A DNA stretch of 35,217 nt from Gracilaria domingensis (taxonomy: Eukaryota > Rhodophyta > Florideophyceae > Gracilariales > Gracilariaceae). The DNA lies in NCBI GenBank assembly GCA_022539475.1, contig VCMS01000423.1:1-35217 (forward strand), written 5' to 3'. Below the pieces are notes generated by a model. That model searched no databases and was not told where the DNA came from. It was given only the letters and a program-made list of their open reading frames with translations. The translations under genes and the position numbers were made by a program. Below are positions 8,904 to 35,217 of this stretch, in pieces (the first letter of the stretch is position 1; each line of letters begins with the position of its first letter).

Positions 8904-11900
8904 TCAATTTGAGAATTGATCGGAGCTGCAATCAGAAGCCGTTGACACTTTGTTCTTTAAAACCCACTGCTGCGTTCCTAGATATGGTTTGATGGCTTAC
9001 AAGACAATTATGATCATCTAAATGAACTTGTTAACACCTTTCAGGATGCTATTCCCTCTGTGAACTGAGGACTCTCCCAACGGGTCTAAGTAATAACGCC
9101 GGTTGGAAATTTGGATCTCCCCAAGCAACCTCTGGATGCAACTTAGGGATTCGATTGTGTTCTCATCTCCTCTTCGTGTATCGGAGAAGACCAAATCGTT
9201 TTCTCTATCGTATGTCATATTATAATGCCATTTTATCTCTGCCAAGTTCAGACCTTCCCGGGTACCACATGGAGATTCTATCACCACCTCAATGATTCTT
9301 TTCAATTCACCGTAGTACAAATCTTTCTGTTGATTCATATCGCCTTCGTTCGTGCTTATTGATCTCCAGAACTCATCATCATTATCATCTTGAAATTCAG
9401 CGGCGACGCAATATTTTTGTCTCGCATCATATCTTAATCGCAATCTTCGTTTGTATTGGTCAACTGTCTCTACTGAAAATGTTGTTCCATGTCCGAATTG
9501 CAAGGTGACGCTGGAATACTCCTTGGCACTCTTAATATCAAAATCATTTGTAACAAACTCGTCTGACGCAAAGCGACATATTGCCGCTCTTACTGGCTCT
9601 TTGGACGCATCAATTTGACGCCCAACGCCATGCAACGTAACAAGCACATCTTGACCTTTCCGATGCCCACGTTCATTTCCCATTGAGCTAGAATCACTGT
9701 GTTTGCTCAGATCATTCAGGTCCGGGTTTTCTTCCTCGCATTGACGGCATGTGTTTGATGCAAGCCCTCCACACATAAGCTTTATCGCCAAAAGCTTATG
9801 GTTCTTGTGAAATATATGCGCTTCAACGTTTGACTTAGATCAGATACGACTACCTACTTCTCCGAGAAGGCGCTCCACGAGAAATTGAGATGAAACAGGC
9901 AAGGGACCGCATTCCTCTAAAAGTTCGGGAAGATGCAAAATGGCATGGGTTGAAGGCGTGAAGCAGTAGTACTCAGATGGTTTGCTTGCAAACAAGTCGA
10001 TGAATCTGGCAAACAATTCTTCAACCACGCACAAGAGGTCTTTTCTCTGTTGATTACTGCAGTTGTAACTGAAGCATATATTCACCATTCTACCCGTGAG
10101 TCTCCAAATTCGTAGAATTTTCTTCTTCACCTTATAGTGATGCATGAAAGGTAACAGATATAACTGTGCCTGTCTTTTGAAGTCTTCTGCTTTGTACTTC
10201 GTGACATGCTCCAACGACATAGGTGATATTCCCCAACTGCTTGGTATTCCTCTTGCAGCTTCTTCCATTGGCTTATTGATGGATTTCAGGGTCTCAGCCT
10301 CAATGCAATACTTCGGCAAACACGGTAACTTTTCGTGTTGGGAGTGAGACCCGATTGCGAGATTAAGTACATGTTTTGACCAACCGAGCAACACCAAATG
10401 CATGACATCGTAAGGGAACGAGAAAACGTAGTCAAGAGTTAGTCTTCTCAAAAGAGATGAACGTTTAATACCGGTCTTCCGCTTCAAATCATCTCTTTCT
10501 TGTTTGCTGCAACTGTTCTTTGCCAGACGTTTCCATACAGAGAGGACCTCGGCACTATCTCGAATCGTAGGACACTCAGTCCTGATTATATCCCCTCGAC
10601 GGCATAATCTCTCTCTCGAAATAACGTCTTTGAGAAGTCTAGATGAAACGTCAGGAACGACGCACGCGCTTCGGCATACCCTCACAAAGGTCTTCTTTTT
10701 CTTGCAAAAACGGCAGAACATCAAACCTGTATGACCAACATATCCTAGTACCTTGGAGGCCGCAGGCCAGTCTGCAGTGAAGTACACAACATATGCCTTC
10801 ATCAAACGTATCTGCTTGTCATAACACACAATTGGAATACCCTGTTCTAGCTCACGAAGATCTTCAACAGTTTCATGCAGAAAGGTGTCAAAGTATAAGG
10901 TATCATGCGATCCCGGTATAACTGCGAGTATCAACGAGTTAGAGGCTTTGGCTCTCTCGTTCGGATTGAGGTTGAGCACGGTGCATGTCACAGGCCACGA
11001 TGAGACAGGCTCACCGCGCTTGTTTCGAAAGCATTCAAAACCATCAGTTGATATCGTGAGGAAGAAAATCAACGTGTTCTCGGTGGTATCAACATGTTTT
11101 GCACGTTCTTGAAGAAGCCTTGAGAACATCCTTCCATTATAGTAGTCGTCCGTCGATTCAAACCTGTCTAAAACTTCATCTACATCTCTTTGAGAGAAAA
11201 CCGCATTCATTGCTCGCTTATAACCCTCTTGAACTTCTCTAAAAGTATCAGGACATCTTAGAAATGCTTTGAACGCTACTGATGGTTTCAGAAACCAAAA
11301 AGTTGCGCTTCCTTGGCCCATCATAGGGGCCTGACAGGTTGGACACTTTCTGCTTCCTTTCAACGCGCCGGAACACGCTGCATGGCCTTGTCGGCACATA
11401 CGGACCGAACTCTTAAAGAGAATGTTTCTCTTTATGGCGAAAGAAATAAGAGAACGATAAGAGAAAATGGAGTTGAGAGGTTCAACGGACAGAAGTCGCT
11501 CGATAGCGTTTTGAGAAATATCGGATACTTCTGCCATATACAGGAAACGGCTTAACCGCTTAAACTCATTCATTCTAGGGTCTTCATCGATTTCAATGTT
11601 CCCGGAAGGTACTGAGGAGCTCAGGCACGAATGATTGGAAGAAGAGGAAGGCTCCGAACTAGAACATTCAGGCACAGGTGTACTAGAACCGAATCTATGT
11701 TGATCGTTGCCCTCTCTAATAATTGCCTCATCTGCGTAATTCATGTTCTCACTTTCTTCAATCTCTGCTACAACGTTATTACCCTCTATTGGAACGACTT
11801 CTAGTTCTTCTGTGGAATCTGCATTATTTTGGTTCGATGCAAAAGTTGGATGCTGTCGTGCTACTTCTCCGTATTGGACTGAATCTGAAGCAGGCAAGTG

Positions 11901-12125
11901 TGTTTCAGAGCAATTTATGGCCGGCAAAGAACCTGATGGGTTTCGTGTTCCATGAGGTGTGGTCTGCCATCGAAATCTTCTTCTTTGGTTTGAGAGATTT
12001 GGATTCTGGGGTATGTCTTCTACATTGCTTTGCTCATCACTTTCCCCATTATCTGCTCTTTCCATGGGCTGGGTAATCTCCCATCTTCTCTTTCTTACCC
12101 GTCGATAATTTTCTTCTCCTTCCAT
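8904..12125 (-). pseudogene. Tnp2-family (CACTA/Plavaka-like) transposase with one in-frame stop
   Basis: This would be the cut-and-paste transposase of an En/Spm (CACTA) superfamily element. From the ATG at 12125, residues 1-190 are a Ser/Glu-rich low-complexity leader. A zinc ribbon follows (Cys 244, 251, 261, 264). The RNase-H-like core has TISTDGFECF (Asp361), FTADWPAASK (Asp452) with the Tnp2 zinc knuckle CRFC (471-474), FPYDVMHLVLLG (His576), and a late FLVERLLGEV (Glu751). The frame meets a TGA at 9840-9842 and then continues, in the same frame, with SKSNVEAHIFHKNHKLLAIK and about 260 more residues to a TAG at 9018. A further 37 codons, including a TAA, lead to a TGA near 8904. The single TGA fits CGA (Arg) changed by a CpG transition. 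The protein is otherwise intact, so this copy died recently, or the base is an error. Confidence 0.8.
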
Positions 12126-21221: not shown

Positions 21222-24063
21222 TTACGAGGTTCTTCGCAAATCAGTACTCTCTCCTCTGATACCGCGAAGAATACGGTTGACCCCATCTGGTGATGGGGTA
21301 TCTGATGCAAGAAGTTGATCAATCCTAGCGCATTGGTCGATAAAATAACAACGCGTTCTGCATCTAGTACGATTGATCAGACCTGATTCATTCCCAAGCA
21401 TTGCCGGCGACGGAACCTCATGTCCAACCACACGAATCAAACACGAAATGATGGAGACATCTTCAACCGTTCGGGATGAGAACGACTGCTCCACATCACA
21501 GTTTTTGTAAATTTGCCCTTGAGCACCAGTCTTAAAGCCGGAAACCCATTCCACCAAGGCCACCTTGTACTCGGACTGCCAATGAGGCCACCGCTCTTTC
21601 AAGTCGTCTTGCAAAGTGAAGTGCATGAACGTATGTGCCCCTCCGTAGTAGATCTCAACAACTGGACTGTCTTCTATGGGCATTTCACAAGCAAAATAGT
21701 AGCTCACTCTTTCTCATTTTGCTCGTAGGCAAAGCGATGGTACCTTCAACATACCGGAGGCATTCTGTACTACCCAACCAGAATAGCATCGCAGTCTAGC
21801 ATACAATATGCAGGACAAAAGTGTCTGAATAAGAAGCGATGCTTCAGAAGATGAAAGGCCTTCTTACTTTTGCCGAAGATAACTCTGTAACAATCTCTTT
21901 AGCGATTGATCCTCCTCAGATTCGTCATTGAATTCGTACCTATTTCCTGCGCCTCGAAGCGCGTACCCATCTTTTCGGTCACGTTCATTCCATTCTGGGT
22001 CGTCTCCTGCAAATCGCACCTTGCAATACGACTTGAAACTCTCGTACGAAAGCGCTGACCGGAATAGAGACGACAAAACATGGGTCCGAGCATTGAACCT
22101 TCCAAGAATCCAACCAATGTAACGCTCCATCCGATACTGAGAGTACAGCACTGGTGGTCCATTCACTTTAACCCACTCCTTAAGATGCAGAACCAAGTGA
22201 ATTACGTACTTGCACACGTTCACATGCTCAAGGTCGTGTTGGAAGTAATCACGCTCAAAATGGTCATAGAAATGTATGCAATGAATGCCAAGAACCTTCA
22301 AATCAATCTCCGTCAAAGATCCCCGTTAGCACAAGTCCACAATCTGAACTAAGTAGCTTTATCCAGATAGGTACAGTTCAGCAAGTATCCCATCCAGGAC
22401 GATTAGACTGTAATATAATATGAACGCTTTGAACTCTTCTGACTTCCATTCGGGAAACCGCGAAAGGGACCTTGGACGTGAATTCATCTGGCTTGGTATG
22501 CCGGCACCAAAGCTCGCTAGCTCATGGTCAATTTTCTGTATGTGTATCGCACTCAAATGGTATGGCTGATTGATTCCTCCGCACCATAAACGAATGAAGT
22601 CTTTCCCAATGTTGTAAAATAGGTGCATGACATCGATGGAGAAACAAGAGTAAGGCTCGAGATGTGATAGTGAGAAAAGAACGGAGCCTTCAGAAATTCC
22701 ATACTCCTTTTCCAGTTCTGTTCTGATGTTTCCTTGAACAGAATCTAGTTCGGTTATAGTCTCCAAAGTATCACTTGTATCACGTATGGGAAGCCCCTTG
22801 ACATCGAACATGTTGCACAGCGACCCGTTGTTCATTTTGAACATGCTTGGATAGTAGTAATGTCTGTGAGTGGGTGACCACACTCCTTTTATACGGCAGT
22901 ACCTACAAAGAGCTTTTCCATTGTGACCCTTGAACCCAGCGATCTTCTTCATTGCTGGGAGATCCCCGCCGCACCACAACAGATGGAAACGCACACGCCG
23001 TGAAGAACCATCAAAGAACATAAAGCCAGTCCCTGCCCCATCTTTGTTAATGGATTCAATTGCTCTTACGAGAGGATAGATAAAGAATTGCAAGTTCACT
23101 AGCTCGCTTGGACCGGGAATGAATAGCATCGGCAGAACGTTCTTCACTGAAAGGCGCTTATGGGGAGGTAGGTTGGATAAGAGGACTGCGATGGGCCATA
23201 CGTCATAAGAGCGCTTTCGGAAAGCCAGAAATCCGTCACATGATAGCGCGATATACACGTCATTGCTTAACTCCGAATGACCCCCAAAGCTGTCACATAA
23301 CCGTTGGTATACTCCTCCATCAAAGAAGTCTCTGTATCTCTCAGTCGTGAAGTGGTCCATCACTGCGTGTACGAAAACAACTCTTCGCATCTATCTCTGT
23401 CCAGGAATATATCAAGGAGCCTAGCTGACAATTTCATCCAGTAAAAGTATAGATCAGGACTCTGAACAGTCTCAAGAGGACGCTGCTTTCCGCACACTTA
23501 GCATTCAGTGTGCTGTGGGTCAGAGAAGCACATGTGCCCCGGATATATGAAGAACCTCTCTACGGCTTCGTCTATTCCGGAGTCCTTCTGTAGTCCAGAC
23601 AAAACTGTCTTCCAACTACGATAAGGTGCCCTGACTAACTGGAGAACATCATCCATAACTGCGTGAGTTCATCCGTTCTTGAAGTAGATCCCCACCCAAT
23701 CCTTGTTTGCGTTCATGCATAAACGGAAGGCTTGAAACGGACCTGAGGTAGATTGAAGCACACTAAATTGGGATTGAGAGCTCTGATTATCGTACGTTCC
23801 CGCTTCGATATCTTCCTGCTGAGAACTAAGGGCAGATGCCTGTTCAAGGCTTCCGAGAGAAATACTCATTGAATGAGAAAGCCTGGTGTTATGGGATGTG
23901 GTAAAGGGACTTTGGGGTACACATTGCAGATGGAAGTGACTTCTACTTCTTCATAGTCAGCCAAAGGGTTATTGAACTGATTCTGCAAGGTCAACACCTC
24001 ACTGCCCTGGGGCTGATCCATCAAAGAAACGCTGTGTTCTGCGCTTGAAGAGTGTGAATGCAA
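21222..24063 (-). pseudogene. Second Tnp2-family transposase, heavily decayed
   Basis: A degenerate CACTA/Plavaka-like transposase. In order on the minus strand: two low-complexity N-terminal pieces (24063-23866, 23869-23669) in different frames; after a TGA at 23669 a zinc-ribbon piece, HMCFSDPQHTEC then VCGKQRP, with a TAA at 23498 between its Cys pairs; then YFYWMKLSARLLDIFL. A frameshift near 23340-23390 leads to the core ORF (23390-22359): VYIALSCDGFLAF (Asp), LPAMKKIAGFKGHNGKALC (the usual Asp is not obvious; the knuckle is CRYC), and CFSIDVMHLFYNIGKDF. In-frame TAA codons lie at 22359 and 22326, followed by the 22316-21864 piece (FYDHFERDYFQHDL, YRMERYIGWILG), then TAA 21864, TGA 21714 and a last piece to TAA 21222. 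It is a different subfamily from the 9-12 kb copy and much older in damage. Confidence 0.7.
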
Positions 24064-24922: not shown

Positions 24923-24983
24923 TGTGGGGAAGAAAAGAGGGGTGAAGGAAAAGTGAGCGGTGCATGCGCTGCGCCGCTCATTT

Positions 24984-24989
24984 TTTATT
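24984..24989 (-). terminator. AATAAA poly(A) signal for the antisense LTR gene
   Basis: Minus-strand AATAAA within AAAATAAAAAA, 32 nt after the TAG of the antisense ORF. It is followed by a hairpin (TGAGCGG at 24954-24960 pairing with CCGCTCA at 24974-24980). The position suits 3' processing. Also present at 33494-33499. Confidence 0.5.
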
Positions 24990-25020
24990 TTGAAGAGTAC
25001 GCCGACACGCGCAGGGCGCA

Positions 25021-25413
25021 CTACTTCTGTAAGCGGGCCAGTAAAATTTCGAGGAGCGGCGCAATGATGTGCGACGCATCATTGCGGCGCCCCTGGCATA
25101 CGAATATTATACCGCGAATTACGCCGCGCGTATACAGCGTCGGCGCCTGGCTGATAAGGTCCATAAGGCGGCGCCGGTGCGCGTAGACGTCGAAATTCCC
25201 GGTAGAAACCTCTCGGAGAAACTGCTCCAATTCTCCGAGAAGCGCTTCCGAAAACCCAAACCCCACGACTTCCTGGGGCAGGGTGTGTTCGGCGTCCTGG
25301 ACAGTGGGGGCGGCGGCCGGTGCCGGAACCGCCTCCACGTCCACGACAGGGCCGAGCCCAGATAAGGACTCGTTGGCTGGCGATGGGACCGGGCTGGTAA
25401 CGTGATCCTTCAT
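25021..25413 (-). CDS. Antisense LTR-encoded protein, 130 residues (5' LTR copy)
   Basis: ATG at 25411-25413 on the minus strand (MKDHVTSPVPSPANES) to TAG at 25021. Residues 1-45 are Pro/Ala/Val/Ser-rich and acidic. Residues about 50-130 look like a compact helical domain (SEALLGELEQFLREVS, then RRRLMDLISQAPTLYTRG and IIAPLLEILLARLQK). No known family is recognised; there is no zinc cluster or signal peptide. It has its own TATA-like box 66 nt upstream and an AATAAA 32 nt after the stop, both on the minus strand. The twin at 33531-33923 differs by one residue (Val/Ile), so the ORF is intact in both LTRs, although the copies are too similar to prove selection. It may be a regulator of the element; that is inference. 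Confidence 0.6.
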   Translation of the reverse strand: MKDHVTSPVPSPANESLSGLGPVVDVEAVPAPAAAPTVQDAEHTLPQEVVGFGFSEALLGELEQFLREVSTGNFDVYAHRRRLMDLISQAPTLYTRGVIRGIIFVCQGRRNDASHIIAPLLEILLARLQK

Positions 25414-25478
25414 GACAAAATGTAGTTGATAGGTTGACGAACGATAGAGATAGGAGCATAAGACGCACGAGATTCCTT

Positions 25479-25484
25479 CTTATA
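25479..25484 (-). promoter_or_regulatory. TATA-like box for the antisense LTR gene
   Basis: The minus strand reads GACTATAAGAAGG, with TATAAG at 25484-25479, 66 nt upstream of the antisense ATG. The spacing leaves room for a start site about 30 nt downstream and a short 5' UTR. Present unchanged in the 3' LTR. Confidence 0.5.
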
Positions 25485-25515
25485 GTCTAGATCATAGGTT
25501 AGTGTGCATCTGAAT

Positions 25516-25598
25516 TTGCCATGACCGCAGGTCATGGCAAGTGTAATTGCCATGATGGCAGGTCATGGCAGTGTCATTTGCCAGCATGGCGGTATGAC
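25516..25598. promoter_or_regulatory. Three palindromic sites at 31-bp spacing in the LTR
   Basis: TTGCC begins at 25516, 25547 and 25578, exactly 31 bp apart. The first site is a perfect palindrome, TTGCCATGACC, GCA, GGTCATGGCAA (11-bp arms). The second keeps TGCCATGA and TCATGGCA. The third is decayed (TTGCCAGCATGGCGG, then TATGAC). The array lies between the antisense TATA box and the sense TATA box, where an operator or enhancer would sit. A spacing near three helical turns puts the sites on one face of the DNA. The same array is at 34026-34108. Confidence 0.65.
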
Positions 25599-25748
25599 AC
25601 CTTGTCATAGGTACACGTGCATTCCACGACGAAGGCTGCGTGGCGTAGGCGCCCCCTGCGGTGGCATATGCGCCAAACATATCTACCGTCTACACCTCTC
25701 ATTGGGTAGGGCGGTAGATACAACGCAGCCATTGGCCAAGCCAACCGT

Positions 25749-25777
25749 ACCGTCGATTCTCACCGAGAATCGACGGT
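25749..25777. promoter_or_regulatory. 13-bp perfect inverted repeat just upstream of the sense TATA box
   Basis: ACCGTCGATTCTC (25749-25761) and GAGAATCGACGGT (25765-25777) are exact reverse complements with a 3-nt centre. It ends 9 bp before CATAAAAG. It may be a protein-binding dyad controlling the LTR promoter. Retained in the 3' LTR. Confidence 0.65.
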
Positions 25778-25786
25778 GCGGTTGTG

Positions 25787-25794
25787 CATAAAAG
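25787..25794 (+). promoter_or_regulatory. TATA-like box of the sense LTR promoter
   Basis: GCATAAAAGGG at 25786-25796 is the only good TATA-like match before the leader. It is followed by an 8-bp stem (GGCCGGAG 25795-25802, CTCCGGCC 25821-25828) and a C/T-rich leader, so transcription should start at about 25815-25825 (inferred). Confidence 0.55.
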
Positions 25795-25851
25795 GGCCGG
25801 AGCAGTCGCCTCCGACTCAACTCCGGCCAGACCACTTCCCTTCGACGACCT

Positions 25852-25869
25852 TCCCCCCCACCCCCCCCA
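25852..25869 (+). repeat. Poly-C tract in the LTR leader
   Basis: Two C-runs of eight or more bases separated by A, with a slightly different length in the 3' LTR (about 34362-34377). It is prone to slippage and sequencing error. Confidence 0.8.
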
Positions 25870-26422
25870 CAACCTTCCAACCTCTCTCCTTTTCCCTTTG
25901 TCGTCCTCAACCTTTCCTCATCCCCTACTTTTCTCTCTACTTCTCCCCTTGGCGGCCTGGTCTCACCGCCCTCCCTCGCTCACTGCCACTCACACTGACC
26001 ATCTGTCTGGGCGCGTCCTGTGTGAGTAGGCAAAGCGTCTGCACCACCCTTCCATTGGGTTAGCCTTGTGCAGGCGTGACTCTGCCTTTCATTATCCGCT
26101 TTGTTTGGCCTTTCTTGTCTCTTTTGTTCCCTTCGTTGGTTTCTTTCGCTGTTGTTGTTCCATCTGCCATTCTGTCTTGCCCGAACTACCGTTGTTGTTG
26201 TCATTTTCGTTTGTTCCCCGTTTCTTGCTGTTTGGCGGCCTTCTGCTGCCTGCATCCGTTCTATTGCTTCCCGTTTCGGCCTTGGTCCCTGGTTTTGCTG
26301 GTTCTTTCGCGTTGCGATTCTGTTCCTCACATAGTGTTGCTTTGCACCTGTTGTTGCTAGACGCACTGTGTGATACAGCGTAAGGTTGTCCTTAACCTAC
26401 GGCCCTGAGGCAATCGTTCAAG

Positions 26423-26923
26423 AGTAAGTTGCCTACAGCTACTCTTTTGGCATTTTGTGTGACTACTAACGTTTCGTTTGTTTCACATCAAGTGCCAAGG
26501 TCTATCGTTTCATCCAGCGAATATTCGTCCGTGGTCGATCCGGACGAGCGTATAGAAGAAGTCCCCGATCCCGTTCCTCAGATAAAGAAGTCGGCTGTTC
26601 AGCCTCTTGACGGGCCACGCGAGCGCCACATCTTTCGTGTAGCCCATCAGAAGGAGAAGCGCCGTCGTAACCCTCCGCCGCGTAAGCGAATCTTCAAACG
26701 CTGTCGTGTCTGTGACATCAAGGTCCAGAGCCAGCGTCAGCTTGAAGTCCATCAAGCCGGCCGTCGCCATCGCAGAGCTTTGCGCCGTGCAAACTACACC
26801 GAGCTGGACATTCACTGCAGGGCTTGCGACATCCGGTTCTCTGAAGCCCACGATCTGCGCGTCCACTACAGGAGCCGCCGTCATCGTGCGACACTTAGAA
26901 AGAAGAACAATACTATCTTTTAG
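26423..26923 (+). CDS. Two-zinc-finger protein with a start codon made by splicing, 143 residues
   Basis: Exon 1 supplies only the A of ATG (26423); exon 2 runs 26493-26923 and ends in TAG. The protein starts MPRSIVSSSEYSS. It has an acidic stretch (DPDERIEEVPDPVPQ), then a basic linker (KEKRRRNPPPRKRIFKR), then two C2H2-like fingers of matrin/U1-like form: CRVCDIKVQSQRQLEVHQAG with RRHR, and CRACDIRFSEAHDLRVHYRS with RRHR. Such fingers bind RNA or DNA. Without splicing the frame has no ATG at all. It lies upstream of gag in the same frame, ending 285 nt before the gag ATG. Likely an accessory regulator or nucleic-acid-binding protein; the role is inferred. Confidence 0.6.
   Translation, partial: SKLPTATLLAFCVTTNVSFVSHQVPRSIVSSSEYSSVVDPDERIEEVPDPVPQIKKSAVQPLDGPRERHIFRVAHQKEKRRRNPPPRKRIFKRCRVCDIKVQSQRQLEVHQAGRRHRRALRRANYTELDIHCRACDIRFSEAHDLRVHYRSRRHRATLRKKNNTIF
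26424..26492 (+). other. Spliceosomal intron in the LTR leader (69 nt)
   Basis: Donor GTAAGT at 26424-26429, branch-point consensus TACTAAC at 26464-26470, a T-rich tract, and acceptor CATCAAG ending at 26492. The branch A is about 24 nt from the acceptor, a normal distance. Splicing joins A (26423) to TG (26493), making an ATG in the frame of the zinc-finger ORF. In the 3' LTR the same signals carry single-base indels (GTAAAGGT, TACTACG), in the part of the window where sequence quality appears poor. Confidence 0.65.
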
Positions 26924-27208
26924 AGCACAGGCCTCTCCTTTCATTGTCCAGTTGCGACACATTTCTATTCATATCTCATTACATATATTATCCTTGTTTG
27001 TTCTTCTTTATCTTCTTGTCTATCGTTTGGTATCCCTCTTCTGTTCTTGTGTTCGTGCTTTGTTGTTTGGCTTCTGCCGCACTCTATCTACGTAAGCTTA
27101 TATTTGGCTAGTGCTTCTTCGTCCGATTGGACTGGTACTCTACGAGAGCAAACTTTATTTTTATCGTTTTTGCCCCCTTTGGCTGTAACCGCCGGCGCCA
27201 TCACAAAA
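26924..27208 (+). other. T-rich leader between the zinc-finger ORF and gag
   Basis: It has no ATG in any frame, and the gag frame has no stop here. A donor-like GTAAGC lies at 27092. Candidate primer-binding sites (TGGTATC near 27028, TGGTACTC near 27132) are weak. The LTR/internal junction is expected between 26698 and here. Confidence 0.5.
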
Positions 27209-30055
27209 ATGGCGTTTTCATGGTACTCTCGCCGAGGTGCCCTTGGCCCCGATACTATGGACACCTCGACGCCTCTCTTCGACGGATACAATTCCGATGT
27301 TCGTCGATTTCTCTTTTTCTTCGAGAACGTTGCCACCCGTGGAAAGCCTGATGAGGAGCGTTCCTCCGAAATCTTGGGCTTCCTAAGTGGTGACGCCTTC
27401 GATCATTATTATAATAATTTCTCTGTAGATGGCGTGCTCACCCCGAACGCGGCCAACTACATATCAGTTAAGAAGTCCCTGCTCGATCGCTTTGGCGCTG
27501 CTGAGGAACCCGAGGAGTATATCCGAGAAGCTGTGACTGCCCGTTTGGACTACGGTGATCTCCTTGGTTCCCTCCAGCGCATGGACGCTTGCTTCGACAA
27601 GGCCGAGTTCAACGCGAAGGCCAAGTTCGGCCTTCTCCGTAAAGCGGTTATGGAGTACGCAGACCTAGCTCAGTTTGTGATATTCCGCGGAGCAAGCGAC
27701 TATAAGTCGTTGAAAGACCTCATCAAATCCTTTGTGGCCGGCAAGAAGGCCCTCGGAGCAGGCGGTTCACTGGCGTTTATGCCTCCTCCGAAGAAAGTGT
27801 TACAAAGGAGGCCCGTCGACCCTTCTGATAGGGATCCCACTGCAGACAAGGTGGATCAGCTAGCTAGTCAGCTTGCAGAACTCACTCTCTTGATGAAGAA
27901 GAAGTCAGGACCACCTCCGAAGGCTGATGGAGAGCAAGTTTGTGGCTACTGTCAGAAGCCTGGTCACTTTTCTACTCGCTGTTCACAGAATCCGCATCGC
28001 GATACGCGTTGTGGGGGCTGTGGAAAGATGGGACATTCCATCGCAACGTGTTGGAAGCGCCATTCGGAAAAGAAGGTCCGTTTCGATGCCGAAAATCAGA
28101 AAGAAATCCCGGAAGTTCCCAGACCCAACCAAGTTTCTGTAGTCACCGAGGATGACGTTCAGGATCGCGAGACTGTAGCGATGGCCAAACGAGCCGCTGA
28201 TGGCGCCCCATTGCCAAAACAGGCCCGCCTGGAACATCGGGTTGGTGTCAAGGAGCTTCTGAACCCAGCAAGCGACACCCCATTTCGCTTGATTCGCTCA
28301 GCTACGCGTAATCGATCCGGGAAGCCTAAGAAGGCCTCCACAAAGAAGCTCTCTGGTAAGTCAATGCTCCAGGAGCACGACGGAAAGTATAACGTAATGG
28401 AGGAGCTCGCGAATGCCCCGACCGGGCTCACATTCGTTCAACTCATTCGCGGGGACGCCGATGCGCCCAAGAAAGATCTGCGTCGAATCATCTCTGGCCG
28501 TTCAACGACCAGAAAGGTCAATGCGACCCAGGTCGAGCGTGAAAACTCTCGTCTTAAGGTTGTGCCTACTACAGTCTATGGGACCATGACCCAAGCCCTC
28601 TTGGACTCTGACGCTGTCCCGAATCTAATGTCAGCAGAACTAGCGGACCATCTGCTACTGACACCGAACCCCACTGAAAGGACGATTAAAGTAGCTGATG
28701 GCAATGTTGCCCGCATTTGTGGTACTCTAGAGGGCGTTCCTGTAAGGTTCGATGACCTCCGAGTATCCCTCGAGTTTCTTGTTATCGAGAAGCCCCCCTT
28801 CGATGTAATCATCGGGAACCCCACGCTAGAAAAGCTGCATGCCTGTATCGATCTTGGTACACAAGAAGTCACCATGAGTTACAACAAGAAGCACGTCGTT
28901 ATAGGACTCGACTCCGATCGTTCCGGATTAGAAGCATTTGTCCCGTTGTCTGAGACAGATAGCGAAGATTTCACGTCAGACTCTGATGGTATCCCGTCTG
29001 ACTCTGAAGATGAGTCGGAGGACTTTGCTAACCTCCCCCTTCCAAAGCAGCGAACAACTGGTGGCGCCGAAGTGACCTTAGTGGCAGTAATGGAAAGGGA
29101 TGGGGACGCAGGATCCCAGGATGGCGAAGAGGAGAACGATGGTGAGGAAGAACCCGCCAATGTGACAGCGCAGCCCACCCAAGCCGGGCCGTCCGAAGGA
29201 CCTCAAGTATCTGACCAAGCCCGTCGACCGACTCAGGCTGAAGATTCCAACGGCCCTAACTTCACCTGGCGTACCATCGGGACTCAGATCCATCTGGATA
29301 GTTTGACCGCGGAGCGTGGGGAGAACCCTCATGCAAATAATGTGCATATTGCCGGACCCGATGACCCACAAATTCCTCCAGAGGGAGAAAGGGTGGCAGT
29401 CGGACCAGGACCGCGTCAGCAATCCCAGCTGATCTCCCAGTATGATGATGACGAGGATCGACGATTCGAAGACGCGGAGGAAGAAGTGCAGGCAGATCCC
29501 CCTGTCGAAGAAAGGTCCGGACCCAATCCCTCCTCCTTCCACAGCGAGCCTACGGATACCAGCGTACAGCCAGAAGATGTGAATGTCGTGATTCCTACAA
29601 GTATTGCACCCAGGGCTGAAAACCCCAGCAAGGACAGTGAAGTCCGCTCTCCTGACAGTGGGCCCGTAGGTGAAAGCCGGACGGAGTTCCCAGACGGTGG
29701 TGACGATGAGGACGACTCCTCACCGGAGGAAGCAGACCTCATTGGCTCACCACTTTACCGCGACCCTGTCCTTACTATCCCGATCAGAGACGAAGTAGTT
29801 CTGCTTCCTTTAGCCGAAGGCCAGTCAGTTACTGACTTCTTGGACGTGCGGGTTCAATTGCGACGTCCAGTACCGTCACCCGCGCATACCCCTCATCTAG
29901 AAGCACAGAATCTACCGCTCAACCGCGTAGGAATGCTAGAGGACGACGACTCCGGCGGTTATGTCATAGCATTTGAAGAAGAACTACCTCCGGACGAAAT
30001 CGACGCCCAGACCCCGGGAGATGATGAACATTCACAAGACCCAAGCCGCGACTAG
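27209..30055 (+). CDS. gag: Gag-protease polyprotein of the Ty3/gypsy element, 948 residues
   Basis: The ATG at 27209 (CAAAAATGGCG, good context) is the first ATG of the unspliced transcript. Residues 1-200 form the capsid-like Gag region (MAFSWYSRRG, FLSGDAFDHYYNNF, EYIREAVTARLDY). Two CCHC knuckles lie at 245-258 (CGYCQKPGHFSTRC) and 268-282. A retropepsin domain covers about 455-560 with ALLDSDAVPNLMS (466-468) and FDVIIGNPTL. The active-site triad reads Asp-Ser-Asp where the family has Asp-Thr/Ser-Gly, one base from the usual codon. Residues about 590-948 are highly acidic, Ser/Pro/Glu-rich and probably disordered. The frame ends at TAG 30053, directly followed by pol in the same frame. 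Confidence 0.9.
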   Translation: MAFSWYSRRGALGPDTMDTSTPLFDGYNSDVRRFLFFFENVATRGKPDEERSSEILGFLSGDAFDHYYNNFSVDGVLTPNAANYISVKKSLLDRFGAAEEPEEYIREAVTARLDYGDLLGSLQRMDACFDKAEFNAKAKFGLLRKAVMEYADLAQFVIFRGASDYKSLKDLIKSFVAGKKALGAGGSLAFMPPPKKVLQRRPVDPSDRDPTADKVDQLASQLAELTLLMKKKSGPPPKADGEQVCGYCQKPGHFSTRCSQNPHRDTRCGGCGKMGHSIATCWKRHSEKKVRFDAENQKEIPEVPRPNQVSVVTEDDVQDRETVAMAKRAADGAPLPKQARLEHRVGVKELLNPASDTPFRLIRSATRNRSGKPKKASTKKLSGKSMLQEHDGKYNVMEELANAPTGLTFVQLIRGDADAPKKDLRRIISGRSTTRKVNATQVERENSRLKVVPTTVYGTMTQALLDSDAVPNLMSAELADHLLLTPNPTERTIKVADGNVARICGTLEGVPVRFDDLRVSLEFLVIEKPPFDVIIGNPTLEKLHACIDLGTQEVTMSYNKKHVVIGLDSDRSGLEAFVPLSETDSEDFTSDSDGIPSDSEDESEDFANLPLPKQRTTGGAEVTLVAVMERDGDAGSQDGEEENDGEEEPANVTAQPTQAGPSEGPQVSDQARRPTQAEDSNGPNFTWRTIGTQIHLDSLTAERGENPHANNVHIAGPDDPQIPPEGERVAVGPGPRQQSQLISQYDDDEDRRFEDAEEEVQADPPVEERSGPNPSSFHSEPTDTSVQPEDVNVVIPTSIAPRAENPSKDSEVRSPDSGPVGESRTEFPDGGDDEDDSSPEEADLIGSPLYRDPVLTIPIRDEVVLLPLAEGQSVTDFLDVRVQLRRPVPSPAHTPHLEAQNLPLNRVGMLEDDDSGGYVIAFEEELPPDEIDAQTPGDDEHSQDPSRD

Positions 30056-33000
30056 GAAGTTGTGGCCGAGCCTACGTGCCCAGCGCAAGACATTGAGTAT
30101 TCTCTGCAAGATCCAATTGCGCAAGATTCACTCGGTCGCACGCTCGACCGACGTGATTACCCCTCCGACACCAACAAGGAGGAGGTGATTCTAGAACGGA
30201 TCTCTCATCTCCCAAGGGATAGACGGGTGGACCTCCTCGCTGTTCTGGATAACTTGAATGTCATAGCATGGTCCTTGTATGATCTTAGGCCCTCTGACGT
30301 GCCGGTAACGCACAGGTTTGACCTCAGTGTCCGGACCCCAATTCATTCGAAGGTCCGAAGGCTACCCCCAAAGCATGACGACGTTGTTCGGAAAGAGGTT
30401 GACAAAATGTTGTCCGCCGGGATCATCAAGCCGTCCACCTCTCCTTGGTCCTTCCCAGTTGTCATCGCACATAAGAAGGATGGAAAGCCCGGATTCTGTG
30501 TCGACTATCGGGGTCTGAACCAGGTCATGACGCCCGACAGGTGGCCCCTACCAAACATGGAACAGATCTTTGACGATTTGGGTGGTTGTTCGTTCTTCAC
30601 GACCCTAGACCTTTTCTCCGGATACTGGCAGGTGCGTATGGCCCCTGACTGCAAAGAAATGACGACTTTTGTTTGTCGTCAGGGAACCTTCCAGTTTGAA
30701 GTCATGCCTTTTGGTCTCATGAATGCCCCAGCCACGTTTCAAAGGATGATGGACGCGGTCCTTCATGGGGTGGAGTTTGCTCGCGTCTATATAGACGACG
30801 TTGTCATCTTCTCGAGAAGCCTGGAAGAACATTTGTACCACCTAACCAGGGTGCTCAAGATCCTTGCAAGTCATGGTCTGAAGATAAAAATATCCAAATG
30901 TGATTTTGCACAGCCCCGTATCAAACTGCTTGGTCACGTCATCGACAATGAAGGCACTTCGGTTGATCAAGACAAGATCGACGTCATCCAAAAGGCCCCC
31001 GAACCATCGACGGTAACCGAGCTCCGAAGTTTTCTCGGTCTAGCCAGTTATTATCGAAGGTTCATAAAGGATTTCGCAGATACGTCAGCAGTATTGCATG
31101 CTGCCACTACAGGGAAAGGAAAGCTGAATTTCACCAATGAGATGAAGACAGCGTTTAATGATCTAAAGGGAAAGTTAGTATCCCCGCCGGTCTTAGCATT
31201 TCCCGACTTTGAGAAGCCTTTTAGAGTTGAAACCGATGCTTCTTCAGTCGCGCTTGGTGCCGTTCTGTCACAAAAGAAAGAGGACGGAATGTATCACCCA
31301 ATTCAATTTGCCAGTCGCACGCTTAATGCCGCCGAGCGAAAGTATTCTACTTGCGAGAAAGAGGCCCTAGCCGTGGTCTTTGCCTTGAAGAAGTTTCGCA
31401 TGTATCTACTCGGAGGTCTCCACTTTGAGCTTGTTACGGACCACCAAGCTCTGAAGTATGCATTCCAAAAGAAGGACATTCACGGGCGCCTAGCCCGATG
31501 GATGGACCTGCTAGCGGAATACGAGTTGGTTATAGTCTATAGATCTGGCGATAAGAATCGGGCTGCCGACTATCTCTCTCGCTTTGCCGTTGGGGATCCA
31601 CCGGAGCCGGATGATGACGTGTCTGTTGTACTGAATGCAACGGACAAGGTCTATGACTTGGAGCCCTTCTGCGCGCACATCAAGTTGTACCTTGCCGCCT
31701 TTTCTTTTCCTGAAGAAGACCCTAAGATCCGCGCTTTGATTAAGAGGAATGCGAAAAAGTTCTTCCTTTGGGGAGGTCTCCTCTATCGCCGTACCAAGAA
31801 AGGATTAAGAGTGGTACCCTCTGTAAGCAAGCGCCGTGGCATCCTCTCATCCTTTCATGATGACATAGGACATTGGGACTTGGAGGCTACTAAGGATCTG
31901 GTCCAGTTCCGATTCTGGTGGCCTGGAATGTACCCCGACATCGTTTCATATGTTCGCAGTTGTGATGGGTGTCAGTTCACAACACCCCTGCTTAAGTACC
32001 GGCCAGGACAAAGAGCCCCATTGACTGGCCTATTTCATACATTCTCTGTGGACTTCGCCGGTCCTCTTCCGGCTACCAGGAATGGCAACCGTTTTGCTCT
32101 GATTGGTGTAGAACACATAACAGGATGGCCTATTGCCGCGGCCTACGGTAATCAGACCTCTACCACCGTCATTCACTTTGTTCGGTCTCAGATCGTTTCC
32201 CCGTTTGGTCCCCCGCTGACGATCGTGTCCGACAACTTCAGTTCCTTCAAAGCCAAGGCAGTCGAAGCATACATGGAAAGTAAGAAGATATCCCTCAAGC
32301 CCACCATGGCCTATGCCCCTATGTCTAATGGCCGTGCTGAAAGAATGGTTGGAACCATCAAGAAATCGATTGCCAAGACAATCTTCAATAAGGGACAAGA
32401 ATGGGATGAAGCCCTCGAGCAAATACTTTACGGATACAGGAGGCGCCGGCTGGGTGGCGGGTTCTCTCCTTTTGAGCTCATGTATGGCACAGTCCCACGG
32501 ATGAGCTCAGACGACCTATCCCCGCTCATCGTAGATCCAACCCCCGCTAATCGTCATCATGAACTACTTGCAAATTCCGCAGGCAGAGCTTCCAGAGTTC
32601 TATCTCAACCCAATCGACAAGACGACCCCAAGTCCGGGCACCGGTTCAACGTCGGTGATGAGGTCTTGGTGATACATGGGAAGGCTCTGAATCCCAACGT
32701 GAAATGGCCTGCCTTTCAGTCAAAATTCTACGGACCCTGTAAGGTGGTTAAGGCCAGGCACCCCCGATATGTCCTAGTGTCCCCTCATAATCGCTACACT
32801 AGAGAAGGGGTCCACGCCCGCCGGCTCAAGCGGTATCATCGCCGACCAGTTCATCTGCAGGACGAGGTGGTAGCCACTATTACGGAAGGCGAAGACACCC
32901 CTGTCCCATATCCCACTCAGATCACTGTAATGCCACTCCGCGTTGACTACAATATCCTCACTGCACCCCACCTCTCGTGTCACTTTATCATTGGAGGGAA

Positions 33001-33385
33001 AAGCATACATTCATGGCTTAGCCCTTTGAACGTCTCTATCCCAGAGGTGGAAAGGGTTACCTGGACGCTGACGCATGCCTCACTCGCCCTGTTCTCAATC
33101 TCGGGCCCGTTCTTGAGTCGTAGAGGAGGATCTATCTTAAGAGCATTATTTCGACGTGTGCACCAGAACTACGGAAGTAATATCGCGCCAGAATTCGTGG
33201 TATATCTTTACCACCATGCAGTCTCCTTGCATGGGCATCTCCTAGAGTCGCAACTCTACATACAAGAGACTCAGGACCATATGTCGCACTATGCTCGCAC
33301 AGGAATCGCTCGGATACTCAGCTACACCCCCGACCCAGAGAAGCTAGCAGTACCCTTTCTCTTCCACTATACCACCGAGAATTAG
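30056..33385 (+). CDS. pol: Pol polyprotein: reverse transcriptase, RNase H, integrase
   Basis: It continues the gag frame after TAG 30053-30055. The first Met is at about residue 119, already at the RT domain (VDKMLSAGIIKPS), so there is no independent start. RT motifs: KDGKPGFCVDYRGLN, MPFGLMNAPATFQRMM, and the catalytic YIDD at 30788. RNase H: ETDASSVALGAVLSQ, CEKEALAVVFALKKF, VTDHQALKYAF. Integrase: HDDIGHWDLEAT with CDGC, DFAGPL, SDNFSSF (Gly replaced by Phe after SDN), NGRAERM, i.e. the DDE triad. A GPY/F-like module (FQSKFYGPCKVVKARHP) follows. About 190 residues after it match nothing I know. Stop TAG at 33383, 47 bp before the 3' LTR. Confidence 0.92.
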   Translation, partial: EVVAEPTCPAQDIEYSLQDPIAQDSLGRTLDRRDYPSDTNKEEVILERISHLPRDRRVDLLAVLDNLNVIAWSLYDLRPSDVPVTHRFDLSVRTPIHSKVRRLPPKHDDVVRKEVDKMLSAGIIKPSTSPWSFPVVIAHKKDGKPGFCVDYRGLNQVMTPDRWPLPNMEQIFDDLGGCSFFTTLDLFSGYWQVRMAPDCKEMTTFVCRQGTFQFEVMPFGLMNAPATFQRMMDAVLHGVEFARVYIDDVVIFSRSLEEHLYHLTRVLKILASHGLKIKISKCDFAQPRIKLLGHVIDNEGTSVDQDKIDVIQKAPEPSTVTELRSFLGLASYYRRFIKDFADTSAVLHAATTGKGKLNFTNEMKTAFNDLKGKLVSPPVLAFPDFEKPFRVETDASSVALGAVLSQKKEDGMYHPIQFASRTLNAAERKYSTCEKEALAVVFALKKFRMYLLGGLHFELVTDHQALKYAFQKKDIHGRLARWMDLLAEYELVIVYRSGDKNRAADYLSRFAVGDPPEPDDDVSVVLNATDKVYDLEPFCAHIKLYLAAFSFPEEDPKIRALIKRNAKKFFLWGGLLYRRTKKGLRVVPSVSKRRGILSSFHDDIGHWDLEATKDLVQFRFWWPGMYPDIVSYVRSCDGCQFTTPLLKYRPGQRAPLTGLFHTFSVDFAGPLPATRNGNRFALIGVEHITGWPIAAAYGNQTSTTVIHFVRSQIVSPFGPPLTIVSDNFSSFKAKAVEAYMESKKISLKPTMAYAPMSNGRAERMVGTIKKSIAKTIFNKGQEWDEALEQILYGYRRRRLGGGFSPFELMYGTVPRMSSDDLSPLIVDPTPANRHHELLANSAGRASRVLSQPNRQDDPKSGHRFNVGDEVLVIHGKALNPNVKWPAFQSKFYGPCKVVKARHPRYVLVSPHNRYTREGVHARRLKRYHRRPVHLQDEVVATITEGEDTPVPYPTQITVMPLRVDYNILTAPHLSCHFIIGGKSIHSWLSPLNVSIPEVERVTWTLTHASLALFSISGPFLSRRGGSILRALFRRVHQNYGSNIAPEFVVYLYHHAVSLHGHLLESQLYIQETQDHMSHYARTGIARILSYTPDPEKLAVPFLFHYTTEN

Positions 33386-33432: not shown

Positions 33433-35217
33433 TGTGGGGAAGAAAAGAGGGGTGAAGGAAAAGTGAGCGGTGCATGAGCTGCGCCGCTCATTTTTTATTT
33501 TGAAGAGTACGCCGACACGCGCAGGGCGCACTACTTCTGTAAGCGGGCCAGTAAAATTTCGAGGAGCGGCGCAATGATGTGCGACGCATCATTGCGGCGC
33601 CCCTGGCATACGAATATTATACCGCGAATTACGCCGCGCGTATACAGCGTCGGCGCCTGGCTGATAAGGTCCATAAGGCGGCGCCGGTGCGCGTAGACGT
33701 CGAAATTCCCGGTAGAAACCTCTCGGAGAAACTGCTCCAATTCTCCGAGAAGCGCTTCCGAAAACCCAAACCCCACGACTTCCTGGGGCAGGGTGTGTTC
33801 GGCGTCCTGGACAGTGGGGGCGGCGGCCGGTGCCGGAATCGCCTCCACGTCCACGACAGGGCCGAGCCCAGATAAGGACTCGTTGGCTGGCGATGGGACC
33901 GGGCTGGTAACGTGATCCTTCATGACAAAATGTAGTTGATAGGTTGACGAACGATAGAGATAGGAGCATAAGACGCACGAGACTCCTTCTTATAGTCTAG
34001 ATCATAGGTTAGTGTGCATCTGAATTTGCCATGACCGCAGGTCATGGCAAGTGTAATTGCCATGATGGCAGGTCATGGCAGTGTCATTTGCCAGCATGGC
34101 GGTATGACACCTTGTCATAGGTACACGTGCATTCCACGACGAAGGCTGCGTGGCGTAGGCGCCCCCTGCGGTGGCATATGCGCCAAACATATCTACCGTC
34201 TACACCTCTCATTGGTAGGGCGGTAGATACAACGCAGCCATTGGCCAAGCCAACCGTACCGTCGATTCTCACCGAGAATCGACGGTGCGGTTGTGCATAA
34301 AAGGGCCGGAGCAGTCGCCTCCGACTCAACTCCGGCCAGACCACTTCCCTTCGACGACCTTCCCCCCCACCCCCCCACAACCTTCCAACCTCTCTCCTTT
34401 TCCCTTTGTCGTCCTCAACCTTTCCTCATCCCCTACTTCTCTCTCTACTTCTCCCCTTGGCGGCTTGGTCTCACCGCCCTCCCTCGCTCACTGCCATTCA
34501 CACTGACCATCTGTCTGGGCGCGTCCTGTGTGAGTAGGCAAAGCGTCTGCACCACCCTTCCATTGGGTTAGCCTTGTGCAGGCGTGACTCTGCCTTTCAT
34601 TATCCGCTTGTTTGGCCTTTCTTGTCTCTTTTGTTCCCTTCGTTGGTTTCTTTCGCTGTTGTTGTTCCATCTGCCATCTGTCTTGCCCGAACTACCGTTG
34701 TTGTTGTCATTTCGTTTGTCCCCGTTTCTTGCTGTTTGGCGGCCTTCTGCTGCCTGCATCCGTTCTATTGCTTCCCGTTTCGGCCTTGGTCCCTGGTTTT
34801 TGCTGGTTTTTCGCGTTGCGAATTCTGTTCTCACATAGTGTTGCTTTGCAAGCCTGTTGTTGCTAGACGCACCTGTGTGATACCGCGTAAAGGTTGTCTT
34901 AACCTAGCGGCCCTGAGGCAATAGTTCAAGAGTAAAGGTTGCCTACAGCTACTCTTTTTGGCATTTTGTGTGACTACTACGTTTCGTTTGTTTTCCCATC
35001 AACAGTGCGCAAGGTCTTATCGTTTTCATCCAGCGATTTCGTCCGTGGTCGATCGCGGCGAGCGTATCAGAAGAAGTCCCCCGTCCGTTCTCAGATAAGA
35101 AGTCGGCTGTTAGCCTCTTGAAACGGGCCCGGCGAGCGGCCACATCTTTCGGTGTAGCCCATCAGAAGGAAGAAGCCGGCCGTCGTAACGCTCCGCCGCG
35201 TTAAGCGAATCTTCAAA
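33433..35217 (+). repeat. 3' long terminal repeat, truncated by the window end
   Basis: Offset of exactly 8510 from the 5' copy through about 34,200. Beyond about 34,600 single-base insertions and losses become frequent, especially in homopolymers, and break the zinc-finger frame and intron signals. That gradient points to poor sequence quality rather than divergence. Confidence 0.85.
33531..33923 (-). CDS. Antisense LTR-encoded protein, 130 residues (3' LTR copy)
   Basis: This is the same ORF as 25021-25413 with one nucleotide change (25329 C against 33839 T) that turns Val into Ile near residue 29. It ends in the same TAG and keeps the same TATA-like box (33989-33994) and AATAAA (33494-33499). 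If expressed from this LTR it would run antisense toward the 3' end of pol, with which it could form double-stranded RNA if transcription passed the poly(A) signal. Confidence 0.6.
   Translation of the reverse strand: MKDHVTSPVPSPANESLSGLGPVVDVEAIPAPAAAPTVQDAEHTLPQEVVGFGFSEALLGELEQFLREVSTGNFDVYAHRRRLMDLISQAPTLYTRGVIRGIIFVCQGRRNDASHIIAPLLEILLARLQK

Follow-up and report, generated by a model that had tools for sequence, protein, structure and literature searches.

Several long terminal repeat (LTR) retrotransposons splice part of their RNA. In the Ty3/gypsy element Cer1 of C. elegans, the protein CERV is made from a spliced messenger RNA (mRNA), while the unspliced RNA serves both as the genome and as the Gag-Pol mRNA and requires CERV for its export (PMC10309623). 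In BARE1, the intron lies in the coding region and its removal from part of the RNA yields an RNA for Gag alone, DNA copies of which could not be amplified from the genome (PMC3735527). Part of the RNA is spliced also in EVADE and Ogre, the EVADE intron being again in the coding region and giving a Gag-only RNA (as cited in PMC12786077). Plant LTR retrotransposons can carry extra conserved open reading frames (ORFs) beside gag-pol, located in the internal region, some of them antisense, and thought to be regulatory (PMC7264820, PMC11963269). The accessible text on a Yarrowia transposon describes no LTR intron (PMC5014426). Here, we examine a Ty3/gypsy retrotransposon of the red alga Gracilaria domingensis, found in a stretch of 35,217 nucleotides (nt), called the window below, which is the entire contig C423 of a 77.9 Mb genome in 680 contigs. 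We will argue that the LTR of this element is probably a splice-gated gene cassette, in which removal of a short intron would build the start codon of a zinc-finger protein and so switch expression between that protein and Gag-Pol.

With Cer1 the element has in common that it is of the Ty3/gypsy type and that an accessory protein would come from spliced RNA, which in G. domingensis is predicted from splice signals and their conservation; the difference is that the accessible text on Cer1 describes neither an LTR intron nor an AUG built at a splice junction (PMC10309623). BARE1, EVADE and Ogre are similar as LTR elements, in their case of plants, with partly spliced RNA, as is proposed here, and in the accessible parts of their descriptions no splice-made start codon appears. 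The extra ORFs of the plant elements lie in the internal region, whereas the zinc-finger ORF and the antisense ORF described below are inside the LTR. In the open-licence literature, covered at the level of titles and abstract beginnings and with most subscription literature outside its scope, no LTR intron building a start codon is named, and nothing was found that joins Gracilaria domingensis, genome and retrotransposon. Each single trick is known: the gag start lies inside the LTR in Ty1, splice donors lie in the R region in HTLV-1 and the foamy viruses, and host genes can have start codons split by an intron. The G. domingensis element would combine these within one LTR, and we know of no other case in which a whole intron and an accessory ORF lie in the LTR and the AUG of that ORF is absent without splicing.

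The element extends from 24923 to the contig end and consists of an LTR, a gag-protease ORF, an ORF for reverse transcriptase (RT), RNase H and integrase, and a second LTR. Its features are as follows.

24923..27220, + strand: 5′ LTR (TGT...TCA), 2,298 bp, repeated from 33433; right end set by the copy on contig C280
25669..27208, + strand: stretch over the presumed leader with no ATG in any forward frame
25788..25794, + strand: TATA-like box ATAAAAG by sequence, with a presumed promoter role
26424..26492, + strand: predicted intron of 69 nt with GTAAGT, TACTAAC and CAAG; joining A26423 to TG26493 gives ATG
26493..26923, + strand: second exon with the zinc-finger ORF, 143 residues, Met completed by A26423, stop within the interval
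26702..26770, + strand: zinc finger 1, C-x2-C-x12-H-x5-H; zf-met, best stretch 69-92, 8.1e-10 for the protein
26816..26884, + strand: zinc finger 2, C-x2-C-x12-H-x5-H; zf-C2H2_jaz, best stretch 108-131, 1e-8 for the protein
27209..30055, + strand: gag-protease ORF, with its ATG 12 nt before the LTR end
27221..27238, + strand: presumed primer binding site TGGTACTCTCGCCGAGGT, inside gag and directly after the LTR end
30407..33385, + strand: RT-RNase H-integrase ORF, in Ty3/gypsy order
33433..35217, + strand: 3′ LTR, cut by the contig end, with many small indels near that end

A preliminary description of the window had proposed that a 69-nt intron with these signals builds an in-frame ATG for a 143-residue two-zinc-finger ORF that has none of its own, and its coordinates proved to be exact. 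The donor GTAAGT is at 26424-26429, TACTAAC at 26464-26470 and the terminal AAG at 26490-26492; the upstream exon ends with A26423, and TG follows at 26493-26494. The joined frame is an ATG with 142 further codons, no internal Met and a stop at 26921-26923, and the start context is AAG-AUG-C. The description had placed the arrangement in an LTR leader, which is correct for the intron but has to be extended, since the LTR reaches to 27220 and so includes both the gag ATG and the whole zinc-finger ORF.

The window holds seven candidate introns of the same signal type, six on one strand and one on the other, and only that at 26424-26492 builds an ATG. In 300 shuffles of the window (two-base blocks, one strand), 1,628 candidate introns arose, none of which produced an ATG followed by an ORF of at least 100 codons. 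For comparison with host introns, three actin-family genes were read by eye; they have the donors GTAAGT, GTAACT and GTAAGT, ACTGAC branch-like sites, to which the TACTAAC of the LTR intron is close, and AG ends, while in a fourth actin-family region (L103) no clear intron was readable. An actin gene on contig C71 matches G. domingensis actin at 100% identity across its exon of 334 residues.

We now turn to the RNA leader, which is presumed to cover 25815-27208 (1,394 nt) from a putative start site. It contains no ATG, against 12.4 expected from its dinucleotides, and none of 3,000 shuffles reached zero (minimum 3). ATG is the sole triplet of the 64 that is absent, and its complement CAT occurs 26 times. 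The gap between successive ATGs on the forward strand, from 25668 to 27209, is 1,541 nt, the next longest gaps in the window being 316 nt on the same strand and 395 nt on the other. The earlier statement that the gag ATG at 27209 is the first one met on unspliced RNA therefore holds, and on spliced RNA the first AUG would be the one at the junction.

The borders of the LTR were established from the C280 copy. There, the two LTRs agree up to ...TTTTCA and are divergent beyond, and the flanks read GAACT followed by TGTGGGG and TTTTCA followed by GAACT, that is, LTRs of the TG..CA type (TGT...TCA) with a 5-bp target duplication GAACT. The duplication was read in that copy, the 3′ end of the window copy being missing. 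The window LTR is therefore 24923-27220. It takes in the TATA-like box, the intron and the zinc-finger ORF, and its last 12 nt are the start of gag. An LTR end beside the intron, first read from the noisy 3′ LTR of the window, was abandoned when other copies placed the end at 27220. Between the LTRs of the C280 copy there are nine differences in the first 1,991 positions and one in the 726 that begin with the ORF and run to the end of the LTR (the two stretches overlap), so this copy is young.

The zinc-finger ORF behaves as a protein-coding sequence. Its finger spacing, read from the sequence, is what we take to be the mark of U1/JAZ-type zinc fingers; zf-met and zf-C2H2_jaz both score over their Pfam cut-offs, and the finger residues are kept in nearly all of 14 aligned copies. 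The window and copy L024 are separated by 35.5 synonymous and 9.5 nonsynonymous changes, with a ratio of nonsynonymous to synonymous rates (dN/dS) of 0.06 and codon-position counts of 4/6/35. The corresponding changes are 13 and 8 for the window and L023 (dN/dS 0.17), and 43.5 and 15.5 for L023 and L024 (0.07). By this measure, the ORF is under purifying selection. When old copies are compared, the ratio increases, to as much as 0.68 with the window and 1.07 for one old copy against another, which is what decay would produce. A different pattern is seen in the intron. Window and L023 differ there at 8 of 69 sites, none of them in the donor, branch site or acceptor, compared to 21 of 426 in the ORF, and if the intron is translated in frame with the ORF, each of the five codons that changed alters the residue. 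Judged from this pair, the intron shows no codon constraint, unlike the ORF. An AlphaFold2 model of the protein was too poor for use (mean predicted local distance difference test score 47.7), and the RNA-binding protein ZFa is a weak sequence match (E 0.012).

The check on other genomic copies that the preliminary description had suggested came out in its favor for the young copies. The ORF was found in 81 fetched loci, several covering one place twice, which gave 47 distinct forms, 16 of them too short and 31 scored. It is intact in 25 of the scored forms, and a GTRRGT donor, CTAAC, an AG acceptor and the A-to-TG junction are kept together in 20 of these 25, in three of the six forms with a broken ORF, and in 23 of 31 overall. 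Twelve forms have no ATG in the 1,405 nt checked, eleven of them at 94-100% identity and L070 at 90%; L049 and L053 have none in the 1,131 nt checked, and the remaining intact-ORF forms have 1-10. In L023, the sole ATG of the checked stretch is its own gag ATG, which falls there because of a shorter spacer.

Genome-wide, with up to three mismatches, a donor-side pattern had 117 matches (reversed control 0), and a pattern for the joined junction of intron-less copies had none. A second junction pattern matched twice, each time at an intron end with small changes instead of a junction, and its reversed control also had two matches. This lack of intron-less copies would mean either that spliced RNA is not reverse transcribed or that splicing is rare or absent; it is as expected if the unspliced RNA is the replicating form. 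One apparent case of intron loss, L047, was rejected, as the intron is retained with an altered donor and the ORF has an internal deletion.

Copies with intact gag-pol that lose the frame or the splice signals had been named as the outcome that would speak against the idea, and a subset of copies was considered in this respect. In the copy on C365, which has an open gag-pol, a 1-nt deletion breaks the zinc-finger frame of the 5′ LTR, but the splice signals are kept. Together with the open ORF in its 3′ LTR, this agrees with an assembly error or with a mutation that postdates insertion. In the 5′ LTR of the C37 copy, foreign sequence lies between the ORF and gag, and the 5′ LTR of the C40 copy has 65 gap positions over ca 1 kb, which points to assembly noise. 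Zinc-finger matches at 47-54% were considered as deep relatives, but the four that were retrieved, L093-L096, carry frameshifts and are 87-98% alike at the DNA level; the family therefore looks shallow in the G. domingensis genome.

The origin of the cassette can be approached through three sister families (L097-L099; RT identity 75-76%), which are three of many, picked for their long open frames. In these, the gag ATG is 12 nt before the TGG that aligns to the primer site, their LTR ends not being set by LTR pairs. Their leaders of 677, 519 and 469 nt contain 1, 0 and 0 ATGs (expected 5.3, 1.8 and 1.6). GTAAGT and TACTAAC are absent from them (L098 has a single CTAAC), as is any C2H2 finger motif in the three frames. 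Sister leaders that are nearly free of AUG without intron or zinc-finger ORF indicate that AUG avoidance is older than the ORF and the switch. The ca 700 extra nt with the intron and the ORF are probably an addition in the zinc-finger family, onto a leader already constrained by scanning. This would explain why an ORF at that place needs a start codon that is absent until splicing forms it.

On the basis of these results, we consider it likely that the LTR is a splice-gated cassette of the Ty3/gypsy element with a switch between gag-pol and the zinc-finger protein. This reading takes from the sequence the layout, the AUG-free leader, the junction, the retention of the signals in young copies and the selection on the ORF, and joins to them a proposed transcription start, splicing, scanning, switch and nucleic-acid binding. 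The transcription start would lie in the LTR, 3′ of the TATA-like box. On the unspliced RNA, which would double as the template for reverse transcription, scanning ribosomes would pass ca 1.4 kb without AUG and reach the gag AUG at 27209, giving Gag-Pol. Removal of the 69-nt intron would instead place the first AUG at the junction and lead to the 143-residue protein with two U1/JAZ-type zinc fingers. By analogy, the most likely role of this protein would be to bind the element's own RNA, in export, packaging or splicing control.

It is important to note that a number of observations weigh against this interpretation. The AUG-poor leader is common to sister families that have no ORF, and is by itself no proof of a switch; the zinc-finger ORF alone is free of ATG in 12% of synonymous shuffles. 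The intron length of 69 preserves the frame and there is no stop inside, so that unspliced RNA could yield an extended protein from a non-AUG start. Five copies with an intact ORF have lost a signal; they are 84-89% alike to the window, have 1-6 leader ATGs and look older. Given how similar the young copies are to one another, shared descent accounts for much of the conservation, and the absence of intron-less copies follows equally from an intron that is never removed. In a protein collection, no homologue of the ORF outside the genome was found among 26 candidates (0 at E 1e-3), the search reaching only relatives with short exact words in common. As to selection, pairs with few changes give higher and noisy ratios (2 synonymous and 4 nonsynonymous for window and L022, 0 and 3 for L023 and L049). 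The lowest dN/dS of 0.06 is based on differences nearly all of which (42 of 45) come after nt 180: L024, with its identical forms the most abundant zinc-finger lineage, departs from the window at 3 sites up to nt 180 of the ORF and at 42 after it, probably owing to one recombination event with an unseen lineage. The intron of this pair differs at only 1 of 69 sites, and the pair is thus uninformative on the intron. With these points taken into account, the arrangement is real, conserved and selected, and its best reading, a splice-gated accessory gene, is credible, the splicing being inferred.

Three other explanations were considered. The intron might be removed and the AUG built constitutively, mainly on transcripts from solo or 3′ LTRs, making the LTR a stand-alone zinc-finger gene without any regulated switch, with the full-length RNA escaping splicing in some other way. 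Promoter-like box, intron and ORF are indeed within one LTR, so that every complete LTR bears the cassette, and the zinc-finger matches (150 scored of 279 candidates) outnumber the RT matches of the family (39, being those of the 104 scored that are at least 93% identical), although some of this excess comes from each element having two LTRs. Such a gene would not itself require the ORF to be free of AUG, which suggests that the ORF is also scanned through on the gag mRNA; the older AUG constraint in the sister families softens this objection. We regard this scenario as unlikely.

Alternatively, the intron could remain unspliced and the junction ATG be a coincidence; the zinc-finger frame would then be read from a near-cognate codon of the unspliced RNA, or through internal entry. 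Followed through the intron, this frame has 175 codons without a stop, and it contains no ATG. Against this stand the L023 comparison, in which the intron changes more than the ORF and shows no synonymous bias, yet keeps donor, branch site and acceptor, and the shuffles, which gave no ATG with a long ORF in 1,628 cases; we hold this alternative to be quite improbable. Finally, the ORF might be a relic or a chance frame, the AUG-free leader serving only the access to gag. The AUG avoidance of the ORF-less sister families and the ratios of up to 1.07 among old copies, like those of decaying copies, would agree with that. The values of 0.06, 0.07 and 0.17 among the window, L023 and L024, which come from 13 to 43.5 synonymous changes, and the conserved finger residues would not, and we find a relic or chance frame very hard to believe.

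The putative splice-gated cassette is not the only candidate coding feature of the LTR. A second LTR-encoded ORF is located in U3:

25021..25413, also 33531-33923, − strand: antisense ORF, 130 residues, no Pfam match

Between L057 and the window this ORF has 45.5 synonymous and 34.5 nonsynonymous changes (codon positions 18/14/48) and, by this pattern, is evolving as a protein. Its relatives within the genome go down to 32% identity. It is present in only 5 of 29 zinc-finger loci with full flanks (L009-L038 minus L015), and the commonest lineage therefore has a different U3. A more far-reaching version of the splice-gated reading, which we put forward tentatively and hold to be doubtful, is that the LTR is a two-gene control cassette, consisting of an antisense U3 accessory protein and a U1-type zinc-finger protein with a splice-only start codon. 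The latter would bind its own leader and feed back on splicing or export, such that the element would use its splicing state as the cue for either replication or regulation.

Regarding the remainder of the element, its pol ORF has the domains RVT_1 (23-179), RT_RNaseH (267-372), Integrase_H2C2 (474-524) and rve (548-638, under the Pfam cut-off), and an aspartic protease lies upstream of RT (Asp_protease, 6e-07, Pfam). Two CX2CX4HX4C knuckles were read by eye in gag at 27941-28051. The gag-pol is broken in the window copy and forms a single open frame of 2,153 residues in 7 of the 39 closest copies (RT at least 93% identical). The primer-site motif TGGTACTCT is duplicated ca 77-88 nt upstream within the LTR, at 27133 and 27221 in the window, 644 and 725 in L097, and 756 and 833 in L099; in L099 both copies are TGGTACCCCC, and the pair seems to change together. 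Zinc-finger matches occur in triplets ca 8.1-8.8 kb apart on C526, C94 and C92, which suggests tandem elements with common LTRs. At 34500-35217, indels relative to the 5′ LTR become denser toward the contig end and are likely assembly errors. Elsewhere in the window, two ORFs match Transposase_21 (tnp2), at 9840-12125 and 22359-23390, both on the − strand.

If the proposed splice-gated reading is correct, a single splicing event would act as an on/off switch for a start codon and would need neither leaky scanning nor frameshifting nor a second promoter. The accessory gene would lie wholly inside the LTR, which means that a complete solo LTR would stay a potential gene, and a red-algal element would have a spliced accessory protein.
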